DNA of 64,000 nucleotides, taken from contig JAAXIF010000019.1 of the NCBI GenBank assembly GCA_012270485.1, positions 1 through 64,000 of the forward strand, written 5' to 3'. The position numbers and the translations under genes are program-made. Origin of the DNA: Sphingobacteriales bacterium (GTDB taxonomy: Bacteria > Bacteroidota > Bacteroidia > Chitinophagales > Chitinophagaceae). Below, piece after piece: positions 6,144 through 60,880 of this stretch (position 1 is the stretch's first letter; each line of letters opens with the position of its first letter). A model generated the notes under the pieces. The model worked only from the letters and a program-made list of their open reading frames with translations, made no database searches and had not been told where the DNA came from.

Positions 6144-6195
6144 AATCTGTGAATCTGTGGCTAAATAAAAAGCCACAGATTCACAGATTTTTTTT
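6144..6195. terminator. family C hairpin acting as dxs terminator
   Basis: aatctgtgaatctgtggct / agccacagattcacagatt perfect 19-bp stem, 8-nt loop, followed by a T tract. Confidence 0.85.
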
Positions 6196-6256: not shown

Positions 6257-7039
6257 TTAATATTCCCAAAACTCCTTTATAACAATACCTCTTTCCTGTG
6301 CTACTTTTTCTAATCCTTCACACAACAAATATTTATGGTAGAATCCGGTAAGTACCACTATTCTTTTGCCTTTAAATTCATTACAATAGTTGAGAATATT
6401 TTCTATCATTTGCTTGTTTCGAAATATCCAAAACTCACCATTTTGCTTCCAAAATTCCCTATATCTACTTAGTTGATCATTTCTATAACACATGATGAGT
6501 GTTTTGTTATAGTTCAGGTCCTGCCGAAGCTTAATGACGGACATAGAGGTTTTATTATTGAGATCATAAAGCGTTTCGTTTGCAAGTACATTCAAAATAT
6601 TATTGACCTGTAAGAATTCTTGAAAGATAGCGTTCGATATACTGTCCAATAATCCATTACTAAATAAACTATCTCTTACACTAAAAAAAATTTGTTCTTT
6701 TTTGAAAGTCTGATTTTAGCTATAAAATTGATTTCTACCTTCAAAATCAAAGGGTCTGACTATTACTGAATACTCTTTTAAATATCGCTTAACTGCTACT
6801 TGCTCATTTTCATTGGACTGGATTAAAAAATTCCCTTTTTTGTCCATGTTAGCACTATCATACTCCATTAAAATGATATCAGGTCTAATTTTCTGAAGCT
6901 CTTTGTACAACGTATTGCTATTTACGTTGTCTGTTGGATAGTGCTGGGTTCCTATAATGGTTAAATAGGTCTGAGACTGTATCTGGTTGCGAAGGAATAG
7001 ACCTGTAACCAACACCAGAATGTATAAGTATTTAGACAT
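6257..7039 (-). pseudogene. exported TraB/ChaN-like hypothetical interrupted by one in-frame TAA
   Basis: ORFs 6716..7039 and 6257..6649 share a frame; the frame is open between them (NQTFKKEQIFFSVRDSLFSNGLL) except TAA at 6716-6718. Confidence 0.65.
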
Positions 7040-7228
7040 AAGAGTATCAATTGAAAGCTTCTCAGATATATTGATCTTTCAAATTCACTTTGTTGTAATC
7101 AAATGATCATTCACGTGTTATGAAATAATAAATTTAAATATTATTTATTAGACATGTGCAAGTATTTTATTAGATAAAAATAAATACGTCTCGGTTTCTG
7201 TAGAGAATAACAAACTGGTTGGAAATAC

Positions 7229-7274
7229 AATCTGTGAATCTGTGGCTTTATTTTTTGCCACAGATTCACAGATT
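7229..7274. terminator. family C hairpin at 3' end of scpA
   Basis: aatctgtgaatctgtggc / gccacagattcacagatt perfect 18-bp stem. Confidence 0.8.
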
Positions 7275-10510: not shown

Positions 10511-10513
10511 TTA

Positions 10514-10577
10514 TGATCTGTGATTTTTTGATTTTAGAAAAATAAATCAAGAAATCACAGATCAAAAAATCAAAGAT
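10514..10577. repeat. short-word inverted repeat, family F
   Basis: atgatctgtgattttttgatttt ... aaatcaagaaatcacagatcaaaaaatcaaagatt. Confidence 0.75.
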
Positions 10578-11140: not shown

Positions 11141-11171
11141 ATGATGATTTTGTGGGAGCAAATATAGTGAA

Positions 11172-11270
11172 TAGTCCATAGTCCATGGTCCATGGTAAAT
11201 TGTTTGATTCATACCCTACTTAGTTGACATTTTCTTCCCATGGACTATGGACCATCGACTATTGACTATC
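11172..11270. repeat. short-word inverted repeat, family A (copy A2)
   Basis: atagtccatagtccatggtccatgg ... ccatggactatggaccatcgactattgactatc between divergent frr and transketolase genes. Confidence 0.8.
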
Positions 11271-11305
11271 TCTATTCCCTATCTTCGCACCCACAAAACA
11301 AGCAT

Positions 11306-13497: not shown

Positions 13498-13506
13498 GGG
13501 ATGGGT

Positions 13507-13613
13507 GTGAATGGTGAATTGTCAATTATGAATTTATATTTGTGAATTGTCAATTGTGAATTGTGAATGATAAATCATCTCTGGTATTCACCATTCACAA
13601 TTGACGATTCACA
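13507..13613. repeat. short-word inverted repeat, family B (copy B1)
   Basis: gtgaatggtgaattgtcaattatgaatt...gtgaattgtcaattgtgaattgtgaatga ... attcaccattcacaattgacgattcac. Confidence 0.8.
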
Positions 13614-13988
13614 TTACTCATTTCCCTCCCCCTTCTTCTCCTCATTAATATTCTTAAATATCTCTTCCATTTTGAACACATAATCCAACGTGTCATCGAG
13701 ATAAAAATGAAGAACGGGTATTCGGCGGAGTTGGTGTTTCATTTTATCAGCCAATTCTTTCTTGATCTCCCATGCACGACCTTCTATCGTCTTCATGGTG
13801 GCTTTTGCATCTTTTACCTGGAACAGACTGAGATAAATTCTGGCTTCCAACAGATCGGGAGTAACTTTAACAGAGGAAATAGATACCATTCCTCCATCGA
13901 GCATGGAAAGATTCAGTCTCCTGAAAATATCATTCATTTCCTCTTGAATGGCTCCTGCTACCTGACGCTGACGTTTTCCTTCTTCCAT
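13614..13988 (-). CDS. rbfA: ribosome-binding factor A
   Basis: RQRQVAGAIQEEMNDIFRR, VSSVKVTPDLLEARIYLS-like, RIPVLHFYLDDTLDY. Confidence 0.92.
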   Translation of the reverse strand: MEEGKRQRQVAGAIQEEMNDIFRRLNLSMLDGGMVSISSVKVTPDLLEARIYLSLFQVKDAKATMKTIEGRAWEIKKELADKMKHQLRRIPVLHFYLDDTLDYVFKMEEIFKNINEEKKGEGNE

Positions 13989-14052: not shown

Positions 14053-15873
14053 ATGAAGCGTTTTTCAAGAATACTTTTTTACCTGAGGAGTCAGAAGCAG
14101 AACATCGTACTGTATTTGATTTTTACCCTATTCTCCATCCTTTTTTCATTGGTTTCATTGGCTATGTTGGCCCCTTTTCTACAATTGCTTTTCAATAAAT
14201 CAGCATTGATCAATGTTGAGCCAGCATTTGCTTTGACTGCCAACGGCGTGTTAAATTATCTAAAATACTTCATCAGCAAGCTCATTACCGAAAACGGGGA
14301 AGTGTATGCTTTAGGAGCTATTTGCGGACTTATCATCGTTTCCGTATTCTTTAAGAATGTTTTTACCTATCTCGCATTTAGAGTTTTAGCTCCCATGCGT
14401 AACCATGTAATGACCAAGTTGCGCGCCGACCTTTACAGCAAGATATTAGATCTTCCGATCGGATACTTTACAGAACAAAAAAAAGGCGATATCATCAGTC
14501 GCATGAGTAATGACGCCAATGAAGTAGAATGGAGTGTAATGGGTACACTCGAAGCATTGATTCGCGACCCACTCAACATCATCATCATTCTTGTTTTTCT
14601 AGTGATGTTGAGTCCGGCATTGTCTTTATTCTTATTAGTATTATTACCTCTCACAGGTTTTATCATCGGAAGATTGAGTCGATCATTGAAAAAACAGTCT
14701 ACCTCCTCTCAGGAAAAATTAGGCACGTTGATGTCAATACTTGATGAAACACTTGGCGGATTACGTGTGATCAAAGCATTCAATGCCGAGAAAATATTAC
14801 ACAACAAATTCATCACCAATAACAATACACTGAATCAGATCCGTAATAAGATGAATTTCCGGAAAGACCTGGCTTCACCTTTGTCTGAGTTTTTGGGTGT
14901 GCTGGTATTGTCTTGTATTCTTTGGTTTGGTGGTAAATTGGTATTGGATGGACAATTCGGATTAGAACCGGAAAGTTTCATCACTTATATTGTTTTCTTC
15001 ACCCAAATCATCAATCCGGCGAAATCATTGTCCGGCTCATTTTACAGTGCCCAGCGTGGTAGTGCTGCCATACAGCGAATTGAGGAAATTTTGAAAGCAC
15101 CTGTCACCGTTACCGATCAACCCAATGCCAAAACCCTCACTGAATTCAATACCAGTATTGAATTTAAAAATGTTTCTTTCTCTTATGAAGATGTGACCAT
15201 CTTAAAAAATATCAACCTAAAGATTGAAAAAGGGAAAACCATTGCCTTGGTTGGATCATCCGGTGCGGGTAAAAGTACCCTCGCAGATCTCATTCCTCGT
15301 TTTCATGATGTATCAAGTGGTGAGATTTTAATTGATGGCGTAAACATCAAAGCATACACACTACATTCCATTAGAAGTCAGATGGGTATTGTAACACAAG
15401 AGCCCATACTATTCAATGATACCATTGCCAATAATATTGCATTGGGTATCGATCATGCTGATCAAAGACAGATTGAGCAGGCTGCAAAAGTTGCCAATGC
15501 CTATGATTTTATTCAGCGAAAAGAAGAAGGCTTTGATACCAATATTGGTGATCGTGGTACCAAACTCAGTGGTGGTGAGCGTCAGCGTGTAACCATTGCA
15601 CGTGCCGTATTAAAAAATCCACCGATTTTGATTTTAGATGAAGCCACTTCATCATTAGATACAGAAAGTGAAAGACTGGTACAAGACGCCATCAATAATA
15701 TGATGCAACAAAGAACCTCTATAGTCATTGCCCACCGTCTCTCCACCATCCGTAATGCCGATGAGATCATCGTTCTCCAAAAAGGAGAAATAGCAGAAAG
15801 AGGTACACATGATGAATTACTGTTGATGGGAGGAATTTATAAGAAATTAGTAGAGATGCAGGAAGTTAGATAA
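14053..15873 (+). CDS. ABC transporter, fused permease/ATPase (MsbA-like exporter)
   Basis: Walker A GSSGAGKSTL, LSGGERQRVTIARA, ILDEATSSLD. Confidence 0.93.
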   Translation: MKRFSRILFYLRSQKQNIVLYLIFTLFSILFSLVSLAMLAPFLQLLFNKSALINVEPAFALTANGVLNYLKYFISKLITENGEVYALGAICGLIIVSVFFKNVFTYLAFRVLAPMRNHVMTKLRADLYSKILDLPIGYFTEQKKGDIISRMSNDANEVEWSVMGTLEALIRDPLNIIIILVFLVMLSPALSLFLLVLLPLTGFIIGRLSRSLKKQSTSSQEKLGTLMSILDETLGGLRVIKAFNAEKILHNKFITNNNTLNQIRNKMNFRKDLASPLSEFLGVLVLSCILWFGGKLVLDGQFGLEPESFITYIVFFTQIINPAKSLSGSFYSAQRGSAAIQRIEEILKAPVTVTDQPNAKTLTEFNTSIEFKNVSFSYEDVTILKNINLKIEKGKTIALVGSSGAGKSTLADLIPRFHDVSSGEILIDGVNIKAYTLHSIRSQMGIVTQEPILFNDTIANNIALGIDHADQRQIEQAAKVANAYDFIQRKEEGFDTNIGDRGTKLSGGERQRVTIARAVLKNPPILILDEATSSLDTESERLVQDAINNMMQQRTSIVIAHRLSTIRNADEIIVLQKGEIAERGTHDELLLMGGIYKKLVEMQEVR

Positions 15874-15994
15874 CCCCCCGGCCCCCTGAAGAGTGAGTTT
15901 TGAAACCTCATAAAAATTAGAGCCGCTTAGAAAACTAAGCGGCTCTAATTTTTTGTACCCATCATAACTCCCCCTTCAGGGGGTCGGGGGGTTG
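15872..15994. repeat. GC-rich inverted repeat pair (family L) enclosing a terminator
   Basis: aaccccccggccccctgaag ... ctcccccttcagggggtcggggggtt around the hairpin at 15913-15952. Confidence 0.75.
15913..15952. terminator. bidirectional terminator hairpin
   Basis: AAAATTAGAGCCGCTTAG / CTAAGCGGCTCTAATTTT perfect 18-bp stem, AAAA loop. Confidence 0.88.
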
Positions 15995-20318: not shown

Positions 20319-20415
20319 AGTCTTTCGGTCAGCTTGAAAATTACCTGTAATCCTTTAACAGGCAGGTTTTAAAGGCTGCGAAGGTATGAAATGTGGGGGA
20401 GGAAAAGGGAGGGGG

Positions 20416-20557
20416 AAAAGTCAAAAGTCAAAAGTCAAAAGATGATTACTGGCGTAAAAAATACCTAATAAAATGATTATCAATAAGTTAAAAGAATAGA
20501 TATCGTACGAATTCTTTCCCCTTTCACTTTTGATTTTTCACTTTTGACTTTTGAATT
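20416..20557. repeat. short-word inverted repeat, family E
   Basis: aaaagtcaaaagtcaaaagtcaaaag ... cttttgatttttcacttttgacttttgaatt. Confidence 0.7.
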
Positions 20558-21101
20558 CATTACTCCTCATTCTCTTATACACCCGAATCGCGCTCATGAG
20601 CAGCAGTACAAATAAGATCAGCCCAACCAGCCCCCATACAAAACTGAGGCTTTGTTTCACCACGACGAGCATGACTATGGAGATGAGGAAAATAGTGGCT
20701 ACTTCATTCCAAATACGGAGTTGATTAGAAGAATATCGATAAATGCCTGCAATCTCCTGCTTAAAAATACGATGCAGAGAAAAATGATAGACATACAAAA
20801 ACAAAACAAAAATGAGTTTCACCAATAGCCATCTTCCGGATACATCAAACACAACTTTATCCCAATTTCCATGAAATAAAACTGACAATCCAAAGATCAA
20901 AGTAAGAATAGCCGAAGGCCAAGTGATACCATACCATAAGCGTTTCATCATGATGGAAAACTGCTCACGCAACACTTTACATTCCATTTCATTTTTATTC
21001 CCCGCCTCTGTTGCATAAATAAACAGTCTAGGCATATAAAACAACCCCGCAAACCAGGTAACGATGAAGATGATGTGTAGTGATTTGAGGTATTCGTACA
21101 T
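20538..21101 (-). CDS. hemJ: CopD/HemJ family protoporphyrinogen oxidase
   Basis: LKSLHIIFIVTWFAGLFYMPRLFIYATEA, characteristic HemJ N-terminus; downstream of hemH. Confidence 0.8.
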   Translation of the reverse strand: MYEYLKSLHIIFIVTWFAGLFYMPRLFIYATEAGNKNEMECKVLREQFSIMMKRLWYGITWPSAILTLIFGLSVLFHGNWDKVVFDVSGRWLLVKLIFVLFLYVYHFSLHRIFKQEIAGIYRYSSNQLRIWNEVATIFLISIVMLVVVKQSLSFVWGLVGLILFVLLLMSAIRVYKRMRSNEFKSQK

Positions 21102-23726: not shown

Positions 23727-24692
23727 ATGACCAAGGTAGTACGAATAGGAACACGCGACAGTCAGCTCGCCGTGTGGCAAGCCACATGGGTGCAAGAGCT
23801 CCTGAAAGAAAAAGGAGTAGCTACTGAGCTCGTGTATATTAAAAGTGAAGGAGATATTGATCTCGTAACACCACTCTATGAAATCGGTGTACAGGGCATC
23901 TTCACTAAAACACTGGATGCAGCCTTGCTCAGTAACAAAATTGATATTGCCGTTCACTCCATGAAAGATGTGCCCACGCAACTGGCCAAAGGCATACAAG
24001 AAGCAGCAGTATTAAAACGTGCATCATACAAAGATATTCTTGTTTATAAAGAAGATCATATACCAGAAGCTTTGGGTTATGTGAATGGTGAATGGCGAAC
24101 AGACCATGGACCATGGACCATGGACTATGGTCTATTTGCCACCAGCAGCGTTCGCCGCAAAGCACAATGGCTCAATCGTTATCCCGATCATCAGTTTGAT
24201 AATCTACGGGGTAATGTGAATACCCGTTTGCGTAAACTGGAAGAAAGCCATTGGCAGGGCGCCATCTTTGCTGCCGCCGGATTGGAAAGGATCGATCTTC
24301 GTCCGGAAAAAGCAATTGATCTTGACTGGATGCTACCCGCCCCTGCACAAGGTGCTGTGATGGTAGTGTGCAGAGAAGGAGAGACAGAGATCTTCAATAG
24401 TTGTCAACAATTACATCATCATGAAACCGCCATCTGCGCACATGCGGAAAGAAATTTCTTACGTCAACTGATGGGTGGTTGTGCTACTCCTATTTCGGCA
24501 CTGGCTCAGATAGAGGGAGATACTTTATTCTTTAAGGGCAACGTGGTATCACTGGATGGCAGTCAGAAAGTTGACATAAGTACAACTGTCTCTGTTTCAG
24601 TTGGGGCTGCAATTGGCACAGAAGCCGGACAAGAAATTCTGGCCATGGGTGCTGAAGAAATCATCCAAGAAATTAGAAATGCAGGAAAGTAA
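23727..24692 (+). CDS. hemC: hydroxymethylbilane synthase with repeat-derived in-frame insert
   Basis: VRIGTRDSQLAVWQATWV, DIAVHSMKDVPTQL, TSSVRRKAQWL, GGCATPISALA. Confidence 0.95.
   Translation: MTKVVRIGTRDSQLAVWQATWVQELLKEKGVATELVYIKSEGDIDLVTPLYEIGVQGIFTKTLDAALLSNKIDIAVHSMKDVPTQLAKGIQEAAVLKRASYKDILVYKEDHIPEALGYVNGEWRTDHGPWTMDYGLFATSSVRRKAQWLNRYPDHQFDNLRGNVNTRLRKLEESHWQGAIFAAAGLERIDLRPEKAIDLDWMLPAPAQGAVMVVCREGETEIFNSCQQLHHHETAICAHAERNFLRQLMGGCATPISALAQIEGDTLFFKGNVVSLDGSQKVDISTTVSVSVGAAIGTEAGQEILAMGAEEIIQEIRNAGK
24081..24134 (+). repeat. family B-like plus family A repeat (copy A4) inside hemC coding sequence
   Basis: gtgaatggtgaatggcgaacagaccatggaccatggaccatggactatggtcta, translated in frame VNGEWRTDHGPWTMDYGL. 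Confidence 0.85.
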
Positions 24693-25448: not shown

Positions 25449-26477
25449 ATGCTAAAAAACGACCTACTCCTCCGAACCCTTCGCGGTGAGCCAACTGAAA
25501 GAACACCTGTATGGATGATGCGTCAGGCCGGACGATACCTTCCTGAGTATATGGTATTGCGTGAGAAATACGGCTTCTTTGAGCGTTGTCAAACCCCTGA
25601 ACTGGCTTGTGAGATCACATTACAGCCAATAGATATTGTGGGTGTAGATGCTGCTATTTTATTTTCAGATATTCTGGTAGTACCACAAGCCATGGGACTG
25701 GAAGTGCAATTGATCGAAAGCAAAGGTCCTGTTCTGCCTGATCCTATCAAAACCCATAAAGACATGTCGCGCGTTCGTGTACCGGATGTTCATGAAACAT
25801 TGGGATATGTGATGGATGCCATCAAACTCATCAAACAAGAACTGAATGGAAGAGTACCATTGATTGGTTTTGCAGGTGCTCCTTGGACTTTACTCTGCTA
25901 TATGGTACAAGGTAAAGGATCTAAAACCTTTGATGAAGCAAAGGCTTTCTGTTATACACAACCTGAACTGGCACATCAGTTATTACAAATGATCACAGAT
26001 ACCACCATTGCCTACTTGAAAGCACAAGTAAAAGCAGGTGCCGACACCGTTCAAATCTTCGATAGCTGGGGTGGATTATTGAGTCCTCATGATTTTGAGA
26101 ACCTGTCATTACAATACATGCGTCAGATCGTGGCTGCATTAAAAGATGAAGTACCCACCATTGTTTTTGCAAAAGGTGCGTGGCATAGTTTGGATAGTAT
26201 GGCTGCCACAGGTGCACATGGTTTGGGAATCGATTGGTGCATCAAGCCGGAACTGGCTCGTCAGTTTGCAGGTAACAATGTAACACTCCAGGGAAACTTT
26301 GATCCCGCTAAATTGTTATCACCTATTCCTGTGATCCAAAAAGAAGTGAAAGAAATGTTGCGTGCATTTGGTCCGGGCAGACATATCGCCAATCTCGGAC
26401 ATGGTATCTTACCTAATGTTCCGGTTGATCATGCAAGAGCATTTGTGGATGCTGTGAAAGAATTTCGTCACTCGTGA
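25449..26477 (+). CDS. hemE: uroporphyrinogen decarboxylase
   Basis: [45 protein letters not shown]. Confidence 0.97.
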
Positions 26478-26540
26478 ATTGTGAATAGTGAATTGTCAAT
26501 TGGAGAAACGTATTCACAATTGACAATTCACCATTCACGT
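26473..26540. repeat. family B (copy B3), hemE-hemF junction
   Basis: cgtgaattgtgaatagtgaattgtcaattggagaaacgtattcacaattgacaattcaccattcac. Confidence 0.85.
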
Positions 26541-26556
26541 AATATAAAACAACCTC

Positions 26557-27465
26557 ATGATAAAAGACCAATGGATCTCCTTTATTCATCAGTTGCAAGA
26601 TGATATTTGTGCTGCACTGGAGAAGGCAGATGGAAAAGCTACCTTTCAGGAAGACAAATGGGATCGCGCTGAGGGTGGTGGTGGTCGTACGCGTGTAATT
26701 AGTAATGGTGCTGTATTAGAGAAGGGTGGCGTGAATACTTCTGTGGTATTTGGTCCGGTTACGGATATGATGCGCTCACAATTAAAGATCAATGGACATA
26801 GTTGGTTTGCATGTGGATTGAGTTTGGTGATCCATCCTGATAATCCATTTGTACCTACTGTACATTGCAACTATCGCATGTTTGAATTATATGACGAGCA
26901 AGGAGAAGTGATGGACAGGTGGTTTGGTGGAGGCACCGATCTTACACCTTATTATTTGTTTGAAGAAGATGCCATTCACTTTCATCAGACGTATAAAAAT
27001 GCCTGCGATCAATTTGACTCTTCATTTTATCCTAGATTCAAAACAGAATGTGACGAGTATTTTGTGAACTGGCATCGTAATAAAGAAAGAAGAGGCATTG
27101 GTGGCATTTTTTATGATTACCAGCGCCCGGATGAAACTAAAGATGTACAATTCTGGATGGCATTTGCAAAATCTTGTGGTTATGCATTCATAGATAGTTA
27201 TATTCCTATTGTAGAGAAAAGAAAAGAAAATGAGTTTACACCGGAAAACAAATATTGGCAGGAAATACGCAGAGGAAGATATACTGAATTTAATCTGGTA
27301 CACGATCGTGGAACTATCTTTGGACTCAAAACAAATGGCAGAATTGAAAGCATTTTGATGAGTCTACCGCCAACGGTAAGATTTGATTATAATCATCAAC
27401 CGGCTGAAGGCTCAAAGGAATGGGAATTGTGGCAGGCTTGCTTGCATCCGAAGGAATGGATATAA
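26557..27465 (+). CDS. hemF: oxygen-dependent coproporphyrinogen III oxidase
   Basis: WDRAEGGGGRTRVI, HCNYRMFE, WFGGGTDLTPYY, RRGIGGIFYDYQ. Confidence 0.97.
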   Translation: MIKDQWISFIHQLQDDICAALEKADGKATFQEDKWDRAEGGGGRTRVISNGAVLEKGGVNTSVVFGPVTDMMRSQLKINGHSWFACGLSLVIHPDNPFVPTVHCNYRMFELYDEQGEVMDRWFGGGTDLTPYYLFEEDAIHFHQTYKNACDQFDSSFYPRFKTECDEYFVNWHRNKERRGIGGIFYDYQRPDETKDVQFWMAFAKSCGYAFIDSYIPIVEKRKENEFTPENKYWQEIRRGRYTEFNLVHDRGTIFGLKTNGRIESILMSLPPTVRFDYNHQPAEGSKEWELWQACLHPKEWI

Positions 27466-27469
27466 GTGT

Positions 27470-27497
27470 GATTCTTTGATCTTTGATTTTTTGATTT
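27470..27497. repeat. family F left arm flanking four-helix-bundle gene
   Basis: gattctttgatctttgattttttgattt; inverted partner at 27901-27935. Confidence 0.75.
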
Positions 27498-27551
27498 GTT
27501 TCATAACAAACGCTCCGTATCGTTCGTGGTGACCTTGCATAACTTTGCAAG

Positions 27552-27902
27552 ATGAACCGGAAAACTTTACAAGACAGAACAAAACAGTTCAATATTAATA
27601 TTGTATTATTTTGTAAATGTCTGCCAAAAACACCTGCTGGTTTTGAGATTGCGAAACAATTGATCCGTTCTTCAGGATCGGTAGGAGCAAATTATCGTGC
27701 AACCAGTAGATCAAAATCACAAGCTGATTTTGCACATAAACTAAAAATTGTTCTGGAAGAAATCGACGAGTCACATTATTGGTTAGAAATTATTAAAGCA
27801 ACAAAACTTAGTACCAATAGTATCATAGATCAATTAATAGCAGTCATTTTCACTGCCGCGAATAAACCGTTTGATTTAAAAATCAAGCAGACCAAACAAT
27901 AA
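27552..27902 (+). CDS. four helix bundle protein (23S rRNA intervening-sequence/S23 family)
   Basis: KTPAGFEIAKQLIRSSGSVGANYRATSRSKSQADFAHKLKIVLEEIDESHYWLE. Confidence 0.9.
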   Translation: MNRKTLQDRTKQFNINIVLFCKCLPKTPAGFEIAKQLIRSSGSVGANYRATSRSKSQADFAHKLKIVLEEIDESHYWLEIIKATKLSTNSIIDQLIAVIFTAANKPFDLKIKQTKQ

Positions 27903-27935
27903 ATCAAGAAATCAAAGATCCAAAAATCAAAGATT
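27901..27935. repeat. family F right arm; also the 5' leader of hemB
   Basis: aaatcaagaaatcaaagatccaaaaatcaaagatt; 19/20 match to reverse complement of left arm over its first 20 nt. Confidence 0.75.
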
Positions 27936-27936
27936 C

Positions 27937-28914
27937 ATGTACCTCCAAAGACGCAACCGCATTCTCCGCCAATCACCTGCTATTCGTGCAATGGTGGCTG
28001 AGACCATATTAAAACCTGCTGATTTTATTGCTCCTTTATTTATTGATGAGGGAGAAAATGTGAAGACTGAAATTGCTTCTATGCCTGGGTATTACAGGAT
28101 GTCCTTAGATCTTACGGTGAAAGAGGTGAAAGTATTGTGGGAGATGGATATTCGCTGTGTACTACTTTTTATTAAGTGTAAAGACGAATTAAAAGACAAT
28201 ACCGGTAAAGAAGCATGGAATAAAAATGGATTGATGCAGCGAAGCATTAAAGCCATCAAAGATGCAGTACCAGAAATGGTGGTAATGACAGATGTTGCCT
28301 TAGATCCCTTTTCATCTTACGGACATGATGGTATCGTGAAAGATGATGAGATTATAAATGATGAGACAGTTGAAGCATTGGTAAAAATGAGTGTTAGTCA
28401 CGCAGAAGCAGGTTGCGATTTTGTGGCACCCAGTGATATGATGGATGGAAGAATTGGCGCCATCAGAAATGGTTTGGAAGAAAGTGGATTCACGAAAGTG
28501 GGTATTATGAGTTACAGTGCGAAATATGCATCCTGTTTTTATGGTCCATTCAGAGACGCCCTAGATAGTGCTCCTGGATTTGGTGATAAAAAAACCTATC
28601 AGATGGATTTCGCTAACCGAACCGAAGCCATTAGAGAAACGTTGATGGATGTGGAAGAGGGTGCAGATATTGTGATGGTAAAACCTGCTATGGCATATTT
28701 AGATATCATTCGCGAAGTGAAGAATGCAGTGGAGATTCCGGTGAGTGCTTATCAGGTAAGCGGCGAATATGCAATGATCAAAGCGGCTTCTAAAATGGGT
28801 TGGTTGAATGAAGAAAAAGCGATCATTGAGAGCCTGACTTCAATCAAACGTGCAGGTGCTGATATGATAGCCACCTATTTTGCGAAAGATGCAATCAGAC
28901 TGATTAATCAATGA
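27937..28914 (+). CDS. hemB: delta-aminolevulinic acid dehydratase
   Basis: SYGHDGIVKDD, MSYSAKYASCFYGPFRDA, MVKPAMAYLDI. Confidence 0.96.
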   Translation: MYLQRRNRILRQSPAIRAMVAETILKPADFIAPLFIDEGENVKTEIASMPGYYRMSLDLTVKEVKVLWEMDIRCVLLFIKCKDELKDNTGKEAWNKNGLMQRSIKAIKDAVPEMVVMTDVALDPFSSYGHDGIVKDDEIINDETVEALVKMSVSHAEAGCDFVAPSDMMDGRIGAIRNGLEESGFTKVGIMSYSAKYASCFYGPFRDALDSAPGFGDKKTYQMDFANRTEAIRETLMDVEEGADIVMVKPAMAYLDIIREVKNAVEIPVSAYQVSGEYAMIKAASKMGWLNEEKAIIESLTSIKRAGADMIATYFAKDAIRLINQ

Positions 28915-28918
28915 TTAG

Positions 28919-28981
28919 TTGCCACTGAACACACAGAGAAGCACTGAAAGATTCTGTGCATTTCTGTGCATTCAGTGGCAA
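28919..28981. repeat. family D (copy D1), hemB-hemL junction
   Basis: ttgccactgaacacacagagaagcactgaaagattctgtgcatttctgtgcattcagtggca. Confidence 0.75.
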
Positions 28982-31393: not shown

Positions 31394-31454
31394 GGAGTAA
31401 AGGTAGTAAATTGTGGGAAGAGAATTTGCCCCTGTAAAGGGTTAGGAGTTGAGA

Positions 31455-31533
31455 GTTGACGGTTGTTAGTTGACAGTTGACAGGAAAACCAGTCTTTCTT
31501 ATTTCTGTCAACTGTCAACTAACAACCGTCAAC
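31455..31533. repeat. short-word inverted repeat, family H
   Basis: gttgacggttgttagttgacagttgacag / ctgtcaactgtcaactaacaaccgtcaac: perfect 29-bp stem, 21-nt loop. Confidence 0.9.
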
Positions 31534-31563
31534 CCTCACTTAATTAGTTTTTAAAAATACCTC

Positions 31564-39160: not shown

Positions 39161-39163
39161 AAA

Positions 39164-39231
39164 ATTCTGTGTCTTTCTGTGCCCTCAGTGGCAATAAATA
39201 ATGCCACTGAGGACACAGAAAAGCACAGAAA
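39164..39231. repeat. family D (copy D3)
   Basis: ttctgtgtctttctgtgccctcagtggcaataaataatgccactgaggacacagaaaagcacagaa. Confidence 0.85.
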
Positions 39232-42048
39232 TTATATAACTACATTGATCATTTTACCTTTTACGAAGATGAGTTTCTTCAAAGGTTTTCCTTCCATCCA
39301 TTTTTGTACCAGCTCATTGGCAAGTACGATTTCTTTTACCTGCTCTTCAGTAGCATCTAATGCAATGGAAATATTGGTACGTGTTTTACCATTGATACTG
39401 ATGGGATATTCTTTGCTTGTCTCTGTAACATATGATGCATTAAATACCGGGAAAGATGCATCTAACACTGAACCTTCATTACCCAATTGCTTCCAAAGCT
39501 CCGCAGCAATATGTGGTGCATAGGGAGTTAACAGAATCAATACATCCTGAAGGATTTGTTTTTTATGACAGTTCAGATCACTCAATTCATTCACACAGAT
39601 CATAAAGCTACTCACAGCGGTATTAAAACTATAACGCTCCGTATCATCATCGATTTTTTTGATGGTGCGATGTAATACTTTTAACTCTCCAGCAGTCGGT
39701 TGTTCATCTGTCCATATCTTCCCTTTATTCTCATCAAAAAATAAACGCCACAATTTTTTCAGGAACCGATGCACACCTTCAATCCCTTTGGTATCCCAGG
39801 GTTTACTTTGATCTACCGGACCTAAGAACATTTCATACATGCGGAAAGTATCTGCTCCAAATTTCTCCACCAAGGTATCAGGGTTCACGGTGTTGAATTT
39901 GGATTTGGACATTTTTTCTACTTCAACTCCGCAGATGTATTTACCCTCTTCCAAAATAAATTCGGCATTGGCATATTCGCCATTGCGCCATTTCTTGAAA
40001 GCTTCAATATCCAATTCTACTCCATCCACAATGTTCACATCTACATGTAACTCATCTACCTCTACTCCTTGCTTTAGACTTGAGGAAATAAATGTCTGTG
40101 TCCCCTTTTTTCTATACACAAATCGACTACTCCCCTGTATCATCCCCTGATTCAACAATTTCCTAAACGGTTCATCAAAACCAATATAACCTAAGTCATA
40201 TAAGGCTTTGGTCCACATACGACTGTATAATAAATGTCCTACTGCATGTTCTGTACCGCCGATATATAGATCTACCTGATTCCAATAATCACTTACTTTC
40301 TTCTCACAAAATGTTTGTTCATTATTGGGATCCATATAACGCAAGAAATACCAACTACTGCCAGCATAACCGGGCATGGTATTGGTTTCGCGTACCGCAG
40401 GCTTTCCTTTATACGTTGTGTTTTTCCAATCATTCAAATTGGCCAGTGGGCCTTCTCCATCCGGACCGGGACCATAACTTTCTACATCAGGCAATAAGAG
40501 TGGCAATTCTTTTTCATCCAAAGGATAGGCAATACCATCCTGCCATACAATTGGGAATGGCTCACCCCAATAACGCTGGCGACTAAAGGCAGCATCACGC
40601 ATTTTATAATTCACTTTGCGTTTGCCGATACCCATTTCTTCCAGTTTGGTAATCACTACTTCAATGGCATCACGCATTTTCGTACCATTCAAGAATCCGC
40701 TATTACTCAGTACGGCATCTTTGGTAGCGTTAGCATCTGTTCCATCAAATGCATCCCCAATAATATTGGTAATAGGAATATTGAAATGCTTGGCGAATTT
40801 GAAATCTCTTTCATCACCACAAGGAACGGCCATGATGGCTCCGGTTCCATAACCTGCAAGCACATATTCTGAGATCCATACCGGAATTTCTCTTCCATCA
40901 AATGGGTTGATGGCATAAGCTCCCGTAAAACATCCCGTAATTTTTTTCTCCGCCTGACGCTCTCGATCACTCCTACTTTTTACATACGTGATATAAGCAT
41001 CCACTGCTTCTTTCTGCTCAGCCGTCGTAATTTTTTCAATCAACTCATGCTCCGGTGCAACTACCATAAAATCTACGCCGAAAATGGTATCAGGGCGGGT
41101 AGTGTAAACAAGAAGCTCCAAGCTGCTAGCTTCAGGCTGCAAGCTTGATTGTTCTTGCTTGTAGCCTGCAGCCTGCAGCTTGAAGCTGATCTCAGCTCCC
41201 GAAGATTTACCGATCCAATTCGTTTGCATTTCTTTCATGGCTTCGCTGAACTCGATGGTATCGAGTCCGCTGAGCAAACGATCTGCATATTCTGTGATAC
41301 GCAAATACCATTGACGTAGTTTCTTTTTGACAACAGGATGTCCACCACGCTCACTCACGCCATTCACTACTTCATCATTAGCCAATACGGTTCCCAAAGC
41401 TTCACACCAGTTCACTTCACCATAACCACAGAAAGCAAGACGATAATCCATCAAAATATCTTGCTGTTCTTTTTCAGAAAAAGCTTTCCATGCTGCTGCA
41501 GTGAATTGAAGAGTGGGATTACCCGGACAAACATGTTTGATATTTCCTTCCTGTTCAAAAGATTTAATGAGTTCCTGAATCGATACTGCTTTTTGCTGAT
41601 TACGATCGTAGAAGCTATTAAACAATTGAAGGAAAATCCATTGGGTCCATTGATAGTAATCAGCATCACAAGTACGCACTTCACGATCCCAGTCATAGCT
41701 GAATCCGATATTGTCGAGTTGTTTTCTGAAATTATCAATATTCTGAGCAGTACTTTTTGCCGGATGTACACCATGCTCCAAAGCGTATTGCTCAGCCGGT
41801 AATCCAAACGCATCATAACCCATGGGATGCAATACATTAAATCCCTTTAATCTTTTGAAACGACTCACAATATCAGAAGCGATATAACCCAATGGGTGGC
41901 CAACGTGTAAGCCTGCTCCACTTGGATACGGGAACATATCCAGCACATAATATTTAGGCTTGGTGCTGTTATTGCTTACCTGATAGGCTTTGGTATCCGT
42001 CCATTCTTTCTGCCATTTCTTTTCAATATCCCTGAAATTGTATTCCAT
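39232..42048 (-). CDS. leuS: leucyl-tRNA synthetase with repeat-derived in-frame insert
   Basis: MFPYPSGAGLHVGHPLGYIASD, VYTTRPDTIFGVDFMVVAPEH, MSKSKFNTVNPD. Confidence 0.97.
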   Translation of the reverse strand: MEYNFRDIEKKWQKEWTDTKAYQVSNNSTKPKYYVLDMFPYPSGAGLHVGHPLGYIASDIVSRFKRLKGFNVLHPMGYDAFGLPAEQYALEHGVHPAKSTAQNIDNFRKQLDNIGFSYDWDREVRTCDADYYQWTQWIFLQLFNSFYDRNQQKAVSIQELIKSFEQEGNIKHVCPGNPTLQFTAAAWKAFSEKEQQDILMDYRLAFCGYGEVNWCEALGTVLANDEVVNGVSERGGHPVVKKKLRQWYLRITEYADRLLSGLDTIEFSEAMKEMQTNWIGKSSGAEISFKLQAAGYKQEQSSLQPEASSLELLVYTTRPDTIFGVDFMVVAPEHELIEKITTAEQKEAVDAYITYVKSRSDRERQAEKKITGCFTGAYAINPFDGREIPVWISEYVLAGYGTGAIMAVPCGDERDFKFAKHFNIPITNIIGDAFDGTDANATKDAVLSNSGFLNGTKMRDAIEVVITKLEEMGIGKRKVNYKMRDAAFSRQRYWGEPFPIVWQDGIAYPLDEKELPLLLPDVESYGPGPDGEGPLANLNDWKNTTYKGKPAVRETNTMPGYAGSSWYFLRYMDPNNEQTFCEKKVSDYWNQVDLYIGGTEHAVGHLLYSRMWTKALYDLGYIGFDEPFRKLLNQGMIQGSSRFVYRKKGTQTFISSSLKQGVEVDELHVDVNIVDGVELDIEAFKKWRNGEYANAEFILEEGKYICGVEVEKMSKSKFNTVNPDTLVEKFGADTFRMYEMFLGPVDQSKPWDTKGIEGVHRFLKKLWRLFFDENKGKIWTDEQPTAGELKVLHRTIKKIDDDTERYSFNTAVSSFMICVNELSDLNCHKKQILQDVLILLTPYAPHIAAELWKQLGNEGSVLDASFPVFNASYVTETSKEYPISINGKTRTNISIALDATEEQVKEIVLANELVQKWMEGKPLKKLIFVKGKMINVVI
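41113..41188 (-). repeat. short-word repeat, family I, inside leuS coding sequence
   Basis: gaagctccaagctgctagcttcaggctgcaagcttgattgttcttgcttgtagcctgcagcctgcagcttgaagct; related copy at 60884-60910. Confidence 0.8.
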
Positions 42049-42319: not shown

Positions 42320-43195
42320 ATGGTAGATAGTGCAAAATCTTCTTTAAAGCGTAGTAAACCGAATTATATCTACACCATTGTGGGTGTGGCTTTGGTATTG
42401 TTAATCATGGGTATTATGGGCTGGTTTTTCCTAAATATCAATTCGGTAGGTAGTGCTTTTAAGGAAGATATTCGTATCAGTGCCTATTTACGGACATTGA
42501 ATAAGGATACCATTGGGCAGATTCAGCAGCATATTGCTTCGCGCCCTTATACCAAAACGGTGACTTATGTAGATAAGAAAATGGCACAAGAGATCTGGAA
42601 TCGTGAGAACAATGAAGATTGGGCGAAGATCTTGGATGTAAATCCATTACCCGAGAGCATCGATTTTTATGCAAAAGCAGACTATGTCAATAAAGATAGC
42701 CTGAATAAAATATCGACAGAACTATTGGGCAAGTACGGAGATCAGATCACGGATATTCAGTACCCCCAAACATTGGTAGGTAATTTGAATGAGCGTGCAG
42801 CGAAGATTGGTTTGATATTTTTAGTGATAGCGATCATTCTCTGTATCATCGTAATCATCAGTATTGATAATACCATCCGTTTGGCGATGTTCAGTAACCG
42901 ATTCCTGATCAAGACCATGCAGATGGTAGGTGCTACCAGAGGATTCATTGCTCGTCCTTTGAATATCAGGGCGGTAGTGAACGGACTGATCAGTTCCGGT
43001 ATTGCCATTATTTTATTATTTAGCATCATCAGTTGGGCAGAGAGTCAGTTCCCACAGTTGAAAGCCATCCGTGATTGGAAATTGACTTTTATACTCTTTG
43101 GAGGCTTGATTATATTGGGTGTCGGCATTTCAGTTTATTCAACCCATCGAAGTGTATTGAAATATTTAAAAATGAAATTGGATGATCTTTATTAG
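42320..43195 (+). CDS. ftsX: cell division protein FtsX-like permease
   Basis: ABC permease; SAFKEDIRISAYLR, ISIDNTIRLAMFSNRFLIKTMQMVGATRGFI. Confidence 0.9.
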   Translation: MVDSAKSSLKRSKPNYIYTIVGVALVLLIMGIMGWFFLNINSVGSAFKEDIRISAYLRTLNKDTIGQIQQHIASRPYTKTVTYVDKKMAQEIWNRENNEDWAKILDVNPLPESIDFYAKADYVNKDSLNKISTELLGKYGDQITDIQYPQTLVGNLNERAAKIGLIFLVIAIILCIIVIISIDNTIRLAMFSNRFLIKTMQMVGATRGFIARPLNIRAVVNGLISSGIAIILLFSIISWAESQFPQLKAIRDWKLTFILFGGLIILGVGISVYSTHRSVLKYLKMKLDDLY

Positions 43196-43257
43196 TGAAT
43201 TGTGAATGGTGAATTGTCAATTATAACTATATTGACAATTCACCATTCACAATTGAG
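43195..43257. repeat. family B (copy B4)
   Basis: aattgtgaatggtgaattgtcaat / attgacaattcaccattcacaatt perfect 24-bp stem, 9-nt loop. Confidence 0.9.
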
Positions 43258-43290
43258 AACCTACTATCACAACTCACAAAAACCTCTCCC

Positions 43291-43527: not shown

Positions 43528-43531
43528 TTAC

Positions 43532-43594
43532 AGTCCATGGTCCATAGTCCATGGTCAATAGAATCTATAACCCATGGACTATGGACCATGGACT
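43532..43594. repeat. family A (copy A5)
   Basis: agtccatggtccatagtccatgg / ccatggactatggaccatggact perfect 23-bp stem, 17-nt loop. Confidence 0.92.
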
Positions 43595-43609
43595 ACCAAC
43601 TCTAGCCCC

Positions 43610-49751: not shown

Positions 49752-49805
49752 GTGGAGGGTTTTGGTTCTTAAAGATAAGGGGAAAGTGATAGAGAAAGTT
49801 CTCTG

Positions 49806-49913
49806 CCATGGGCTATGGACTATCGACCATGGACCATAGCTAATAGTCCATAGTCCATGGTAGGAAATATGCTTTTCACCTTTGAACTTTCTCCAAAGGA
49901 GCCCTATGGACAC
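49806..49913. repeat. composite repeat: family A (A6) plus families E and M
   Basis: ccatgggctatggactatcgaccatggaccatagctaatagtccatagtccatgg...cttttcacctttgaactttctccaaaggagccctatggacac. Confidence 0.8.
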
Positions 49914-60402: not shown

Positions 60403-60412
60403 GGTTTAAAGT

Positions 60413-60482
60413 TTGATTTCTTGATTTATGATTTTTTATCCGAAAGACTCCTGCGGAGATTTTATTTTTGACTTTTGACTTT
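60413..60482. repeat. composite repeat F-M-E, copy 1
   Basis: tttgatttcttgatttatgattttttatccgaaagactcctgcggagattttatttttgacttttgac. Confidence 0.8.
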
Positions 60483-60764: not shown

Positions 60765-60773
60765 TTTATTAAG

Positions 60774-60880
60774 TTTGATTTTTAGATTTTTTGATTTCTT
60801 GATCTTTGATTTATGATTTCTTGTCCGAAGGACTCCTTCGGAGATCTTTTTGACTTTTCAATTTTGACTTTTCACTTTTT
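60774..60880. repeat. composite repeat F-M-E, copy 2
   Basis: tttgatttttagattttttgatttcttgatctttgatttatgatttcttgtccgaaggactccttcggagatctttttgacttttcaattttgacttttcac. Confidence 0.8.

Follow-up and report, generated by a model that had tools for sequence, protein, structure and literature searches.

Why should a small gene of the S23/23S rRNA IVP family stand between hemF and hemB, in an operon for haem synthesis, bracketed by inverted repeats? This question is raised by a stretch of 64,000 nucleotides (the window) from the genome of a Sphingobacteriales bacterium (G000). An earlier note on this DNA had described an S23/IVP-like gene that splits the two host genes, and a unit carrying such a gene indeed fills the whole interval between them. 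The features of the locus are as follows.

26557-27465, plus strand: hemF, the host gene left of the insertion.
27466-27936, plus strand: the whole unit read as an insertion, beginning directly behind the hemF stop and ending directly ahead of the hemB start (gap comparison; RNA fold).
27469-27500, plus strand: left (5') heptad arm with the words TTTGATC/TTTGATT (inverted pair with 27898-27929; heptad array detected at 27472-27500).
27534-27551, plus strand: hairpin CTTGCA-taactt-TGCAAG directly before the ATG, small and probably incidental (sequence; without enrichment in the family).
27552-27902, plus strand: four-helix-bundle gene of the S23/23S rRNA IVP family, 116 aa (TIGR02436, PF05635 and fold matches).
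27898-27929, plus strand: right (3') arm, the reverse complement of the left arm, overlapping the stop codon of the 27552-27902 gene (inverted-pair alignment).
27937-28914, plus strand: hemB, the host gene right of the insertion.

Profile searches place the product of the 27552-27902 gene in the family, with 71.3 bits against TIGR02436 (cut-off 24, E 6.7e-20) and 54 bits against PF05635 (cut-off 33.8, E 2.2e-14). A model built from 25 relatives predicts a clean four-helix bundle (pLDDT 88), for which the best solved structure is 2rld (TM 0.78-0.85) and which 2gsc also matches (TM 0.74-0.82); these entries are BT_0352 of Bacteroides thetaiotaomicron and XCC0516 of Xanthomonas campestris, respectively. 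Avd of diversity-generating retroelements, which has the same fold, was a weaker match to the model (4dwl, TM about 0.78-0.85, E 0.06-0.1; also 8ub7). A search of the genome for reverse transcriptase (PF00078) gave no match, which argues against a function of this kind, and a mechanism based on such a retroelement or on another resident reverse transcriptase was rejected. Proteins of the S23/IVP family are under purifying selection (pN/pS 0.12-0.41), and the unit is without a recognisable nuclease gene.

The inverted arms that had been claimed for this gene were confirmed, as was the position of the right arm at the stop codon. The two arms are 88% complementary over 32 nt, with a second register (27479-27495/27918-27934) reaching 94% over 17 nt, and their inverted-flank score of 44 far exceeds the 99th percentile of 25 obtained for 600 positions drawn at random from the window (dinucleotide shuffle, p=0.005). 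In the RNA fold of the interval from the hemF stop to the hemB start, the arms form a long terminal stem (z -5.1), and the S23 open reading frame lies in its loop, as in the intervening sequences (IVS) of 23S rRNA. The small hairpin at the ATG is present as described, but it is not a family trait: similar hairpins were found in 8 of 138 members versus 3 of 138 shuffled sequences, and a role as a conserved regulatory part was discarded.

The two host genes are uninterrupted in related genomes. Three genomes of the same genus keep hemF (G010, G031 and G033), and in all of them hemF and hemB are adjacent with no S23/IVP gene between, the gaps being 8 and 14 nt in G031 and G033 and about 134 nt in G010. 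The earlier note had proposed this comparison as a check on mobility, and the S23/IVP gene proved not to be conserved at the locus. Occurrence of the family within the genus is sporadic: ten of its genes lie at different sites in the genome of the window, but most genus members have none. Judging from these sequence comparisons, the unit at 27466-27936 is an insertion into hemF-hemB. The 134-nt gap of G010 (L041) contains a different, unrelated long palindrome (cgtcatcctgagcgagcgcagcgagtcgaagga...), implying that the junction has received two kinds of palindromic insert. In addition, hemC contains an AGTCCAT-type palindrome (24094-24141 of the window) that is translated in the frame of the gene (WRTDHGPWTMDYGL) and resembles an insertion which the coding sequence has tolerated. 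Hairpins of another word family, in which a period of 7 is not clear, occur at 28919-28981 and 39162-39233 (CACAGAAA / TTTCTGTG ... CAGTGGCAA).

Further evidence of movement comes from sister units on Nostoc plasmids, where filled and empty alleles were detected at three sites of close plasmids and at a fourth site in a more distant pair (85% identity). Of the four sites, one lies between two small open reading frames and one after the second of these frames; another separates a TraM-domain gene from its neighbour, and one lies between nrdB and nrdA. At the site of the TraM-domain gene, a related plasmid has a gene-less hairpin with similar words, and a systematic comparison of plasmid segments revealed more gene-less hairpin insertions, including one hairpin nested in another. 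In strain N6, a gene-less hairpin of 182 nt interrupts the four-helix-bundle gene of a unit whose word it shares, and this insertion is exact, with no base duplicated or lost. With the 182-nt copy as query, 43 cyanobacterial plasmid records showed 98 places with related sequence, 28 of which contain most of the copy; the annotated contexts vary, several being unrelated. Target duplication, examined in these Nostoc relatives rather than at the window locus, amounted at the other sites to 0-5 nt or was replaced by small target replacements, unlike the fixed-length duplication that marks insertion sequences and MITEs. Some insertions replaced 8-40 nt of target and others none, suggesting that the insertion chemistry is not uniform. 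At two sites filled in different Nostoc plasmids, the genes are identical at 365 of 366 and 362 of 363 positions (99.7%), whereas in the flanks, taken outwards from the gene over 300 nt, identity is mostly 77-97% (92-99% in one right flank); the units are thus either younger than the divergence of the plasmids or were exchanged as units. Units and their gene-less versions are presence/absence differences at otherwise similar sites, and the empty sites bear out the proposal that protein and arms form a mobile unit.

If the arms belong to the element, they should accompany other members of the family, and flanks without arms had been named as the observation that would count against it. All ten family genes of the window's genome have inverted arms (dinucleotide shuffle, p<=0.005 for nine and p=0.015 for the tenth), and the words differ gene by gene: GTTGACA, GAGCTGT, CTAGGTG/GTACCTA, AGTCCAT, AAAAGTC, GTGAAAG, AAATAAG, TTTGATC/T (the window unit), GAATAAT and ACAAGGA. 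Close inverted heptamer arms were also present at 8 of 8 family genes on cyanobacterial plasmids (scores 42-63). A cross-phylum sample was obtained by scanning species-level genomes with the family motif, blind to flanks, which gave 80 named loci, 79 of them testable. Arms were detected at 54 of the 79 at p<=0.005 and at 64 at p<=0.05, so that about a third of these family members are without arms at the stricter level, and the median score was 37 in inverted versus 19 in direct orientation. According to the record titles, these loci include Bacteroidota, alpha-, beta- and gammaproteobacteria, Planctomycetota, Chloroflexota, Acidobacteriota, Bacillota, Verrucomicrobiota, Fibrobacterota, Patescibacteria, Poribacteria and one methanophagal archaeon. 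Scores of at least 30 were reached by 70% of real loci, compared with none of 136 offset controls, in which the windows were shifted along the same loci, and 2.75% of swapped-flank controls. Chance or AT-rich low complexity as the source of the arms is ruled out by the shuffles, the random positions and these two kinds of control. Approached from the repeats, 8 of 14 inverted heptad pairs 250-900 nt apart enclose a four-helix-bundle gene; among the remaining six, two arise artefactually from adjacent elements, and the polarity of at least two is wrong. The S23/IVP gene family and heptad arms therefore go together in many phyla. None of ten sampled loci checked for an rRNA location (L094, L096, L108, L119, L128, L131, L140, L150, L154 and L165) lies inside rRNA, and the protein of one family member (L001) had no match among 50,697 phage records.

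The arms obey common rules. Among 111 significant loci, arm self-match was 0.678 at lag 7 and 0.666 at lag 14, compared with about 0.25-0.36 at other lags; this tandem period of 7, also detected in the left arm of the window unit, is that of the repeats of STRR type. Phase-aligned words of 80 loci share the 5'-arm core AG(T/G)NNNN (AGKNNNN), with four freer positions after AGK (log-likelihood 237.6 vs 205.3 +/- 5.5 for letter-shuffled words, about six standard deviations), to which TTTGATC/T of the window unit is a poor fit. The 5' arm is the G-richer strand (G>C) in 100 of 109 loci (p 1.4e-20). Word and protein also co-vary, though modestly (Mantel r 0.235, p 0.001, null sd 0.03): word similarity rises from 0.18 below 25% protein identity to 0.41 at 60-80%, and AGGAT-type words are common to one Chitinophaga and two betaproteobacterial proteins that are 65-68% identical. 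Different words occur at some proteins that are 60-77% identical, indicating that words change faster than the protein.

Words of gene-bearing units also occur without the gene. The earlier note had listed solo hairpins of the window unit's word in two regions; the first contains a true hairpin, while the arrays of the second run in one orientation only.

10511-10567, strand not assigned: gene-less solo hairpin with the word and polarity of the window unit.
60412-60437, plus strand: single-orientation array of the window unit's word, not a hairpin.
60773-60820, plus strand: another array of this word in one orientation, likewise not a hairpin.

Another solo hairpin with this word is located in L203. 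Across 464 kb of the window's genome, 122 heptad arrays were found versus 1 in shuffled sequence, whereas 240 kb of relatives gave 6, which equals the shuffled background (the family gene is absent or weak in these relatives, G061 being unsearched for it). AGTCCAT, the word of the gene-bearing unit L004, had 55 array hits in the 464 kb, forming 23 convergent and 0 divergent pairs, and no AGTCCAT array was found in the 240 kb of relatives. Together with the hairpin at 10511-10567, these 55 hits represent dispersed repeats that share sequence with gene flanks, as in REP/RAYT systems. A rule that gene presence brings many solo repeats fails across the order, and solo-array abundance is not a simple function of gene number: G045 (6 genes) had no solo array in 120 kb and G038 (5 matches) none in 80 kb. 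Solo hairpins of the window's genome that share a word have different loops, and hence are not all plain copies of one element; those of L198, L199 and L202 enclose unrelated loops, at least two of which (L199) hold an inner hairpin of their own.

Several other repeats were observed. Gene-less heptad hairpins of the window lie at 11161-11271, 13505-13615, 20406-20562, 26463-26541, 31437-31538, 41113-41191, 43186-43260, 43528-43602 and 49802-49863; their words include AGTCCAT, GTGAATT, AAAGTCA, GTTGACA and AGCTGCA, mostly with the same inward polarity. In L184 (11560-12300, contig C101 of G000), the N-terminus of a RimM-like gene is apparently encoded by an AGTCCAT-family array (MNYCHGPWTISYGL...). 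A 52-nt inverted pair based on an 8-nt word (AATCTGTG) at 6144-6195 and 7223-7274 of the window, 1027 nt apart, encloses two small minus-strand open reading frames (6257-6649 and 6716-7039) and is possibly another arm-and-cargo unit of different period. A palindrome with 59-nt arms that are 81% complementary (15872-15993, AACCCCCCGGCCCCCTGAAG...) is of yet another kind.

The unit at 27466-27936 is probably best explained by integration of a small mobile hairpin element, an S23/IVP gene between inverted arrays of a seven-base word, which would move in the following way. The S23/IVP protein may form a ring that reads the heptad array on single-stranded DNA or on an RNA hairpin, with roughly one protomer per heptad, a ratio whose basis is confined to arm length (median 32 nt, five heptads being 35 nt) and the five chains per crystal entry of relatives. 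The ring would bring hairpin and target together, and host replication or repair, rather than a nuclease or reverse transcriptase encoded by the element, would copy the unit in without regular target duplication. Gene-less hairpins of the same word would be moved in trans, and within host operons the unit would sit in tight stop-start junctions, where it may do little harm. As far as sequence can indicate, the S23/IVP protein is likely to be the factor that binds the words and mobilises them in trans. That words are shared, that polarity is strict and that word and protein co-vary is consistent with the RAYT/REP-like trans action suggested in the earlier note.

The main rival, which we regard as unlikely, assigns recognition and movement of the hairpins to host HUH transposases (Y1, of IS200/IS605 or RAYT type), the four-helix-bundle gene being passive cargo or a regulator. 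Insertion without target duplication is an outcome of IS200/IS605-type transposition, and it was seen in the clean insertions; in addition, the window's genome has two Y1 transposase genes. However, no heptad arrays lie near one of these loci (L233), and the arrays in the vicinity of the other (L232) are of common solo kinds. Across many phyla, it is the four-helix-bundle gene that constantly accompanies the arms; more than half of the inverted heptad pairs enclose it, and the words co-vary with its protein.

Improbable is the explanation that the arms are tandem repeats born by slippage and kept in register by palindrome correction, with the gene present because the region tolerates insertions. 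Arm word and copy number vary quickly, the loops of solo hairpins differ, and slippage has been proposed for heptamer repeats (reported in PMC4679880). Nevertheless, slippage gives no account of one gene family being bracketed phylum after phylum and in none of the offset controls, leaves the fixed polarity, the shared AGK core and the clean insertion of arms and interior together unexplained, and is contradicted by the empty sites, although it could still account for arm divergence after insertion.

The chance is slightly smaller still that the unit serves its host, the arms pairing into a double-stranded RNA stem for cleavage by RNase III, which would separate or regulate the messages of hemF and hemB, and the protein acting as an RNA-binding regulator. 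The strong fold with its terminal stem and the position in an operon would suit such a role, and S23-coding rRNA IVS are excised by RNase III (PMC4990558). By contrast, the units are sporadic even within the genus, with hemF-hemB uninterrupted elsewhere, and the places where they are found have nothing in common (nrdA-nrdB, cas genes, plasmid genes) and include empty/filled polymorphisms. Spread between related replicons by homologous recombination only, with no transposition step, is very improbable: Nostoc plasmids look mosaic and two sites are filled in different plasmids, but the many places of the 182-nt sequence in unrelated contexts, the nested insertion and the ten units at different sites of one genome argue against it.

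With the mobile hairpin element as the preferred explanation, its nearest known counterparts are the IVS. IVS of 23S rRNA with an S23p open reading frame are found in Coxiella and Leptospira; that of Coxiella has its frame in the loop of a stem formed by 28 bp terminal inverted repeats, with tandem heptamers GACAGAT just upstream of the frame, and rRNA IVS are sporadic, mobility having been proposed since 1993 (PMC4990558). The passages considered draw no connection between the Coxiella heptamers and dispersed repeats; GACAGAT as given there reads AGATGAC, with AG present and K absent. The likeness comprises the protein family, the frame in an inverted-repeat stem loop, the heptamers (in Coxiella) and the sporadic spread. 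In contrast, the window unit is located in a protein operon rather than in 23S rRNA, the location that defines IVS, its whole arms are heptad arrays of a family-wide kind with a shared core, and gene-less relatives and empty sites outside rRNA were shown for S23/IVP units. In plan the window unit is akin to these rRNA elements; it is mobile and has copies that lack the gene.

REP/REPIN sequences and their RAYTs (PMC3116915, PMC2817692, PMC8266576) are similar in that dispersed short palindromes share sequence with gene-flanking arms and non-autonomous copies exist. They differ in that the only gene inside the window unit encodes a four-helix bundle, unrelated to the Y1/HUH tyrosine transposase of those systems, and that S23/IVP arms are arrays of a 7-nt word varying from unit to unit, in which no fixed GTAG-type tag was seen by eye. 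The heptamer repeats of other bacteria (cyanobacterial STRR; TAACTGA, PMC4679880; GGGAATC of Xanthomonas, PMC4692102) share the period of 7, the mostly intergenic position and some phyla. TAACTGA reads AGTTATC on the other strand and so fits AGKNNNN (PMC4679880), and the Xanthomonas repeats form 70-75 convergent pairs (PMC4692102). S23 is unmentioned in both papers (PMC4679880 and PMC4692102), whereas the present analysis ties such repeats to the S23/IVP family. No link between S23 and heptamers was found in the open-access literature (subscription journals and preprints lay outside this scope). Because protein, stem and Coxiella heptamers are shared but the location differs and no such link was found in that literature, we class the unit as a new form of the S23-coding intervening element, with a wide distribution; there is a real chance that S23/IVP heptad units define a class of their own.

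A broader proposal, which we hold at slightly less than even chances, is that these units represent a very widespread class of mobile DNA that had gone unrecognised. A four-helix-bundle protein that forms rings and has no known catalytic activity would read an AGKNNNN heptad code, one heptad per protomer, and spread its own gene and gene-less hairpins in trans; the cyanobacterial, Beggiatoa and Xanthomonas heptamers and the rRNA IVS would be its products. The mobile hairpin element gives two orphans a common explanation: the S23/IVP proteins, for which two crystal structures have brought no function, and the scattered seven-base repeats of cyanobacteria, Bacteroidota, Xanthomonas and Beggiatoa, for which earlier work saw no mechanism of spread. 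It extends the rRNA IVS to a general intergenic mobile element; the words would predict the binding target of each protein, and the gene-less hairpins would predict what that protein should move.
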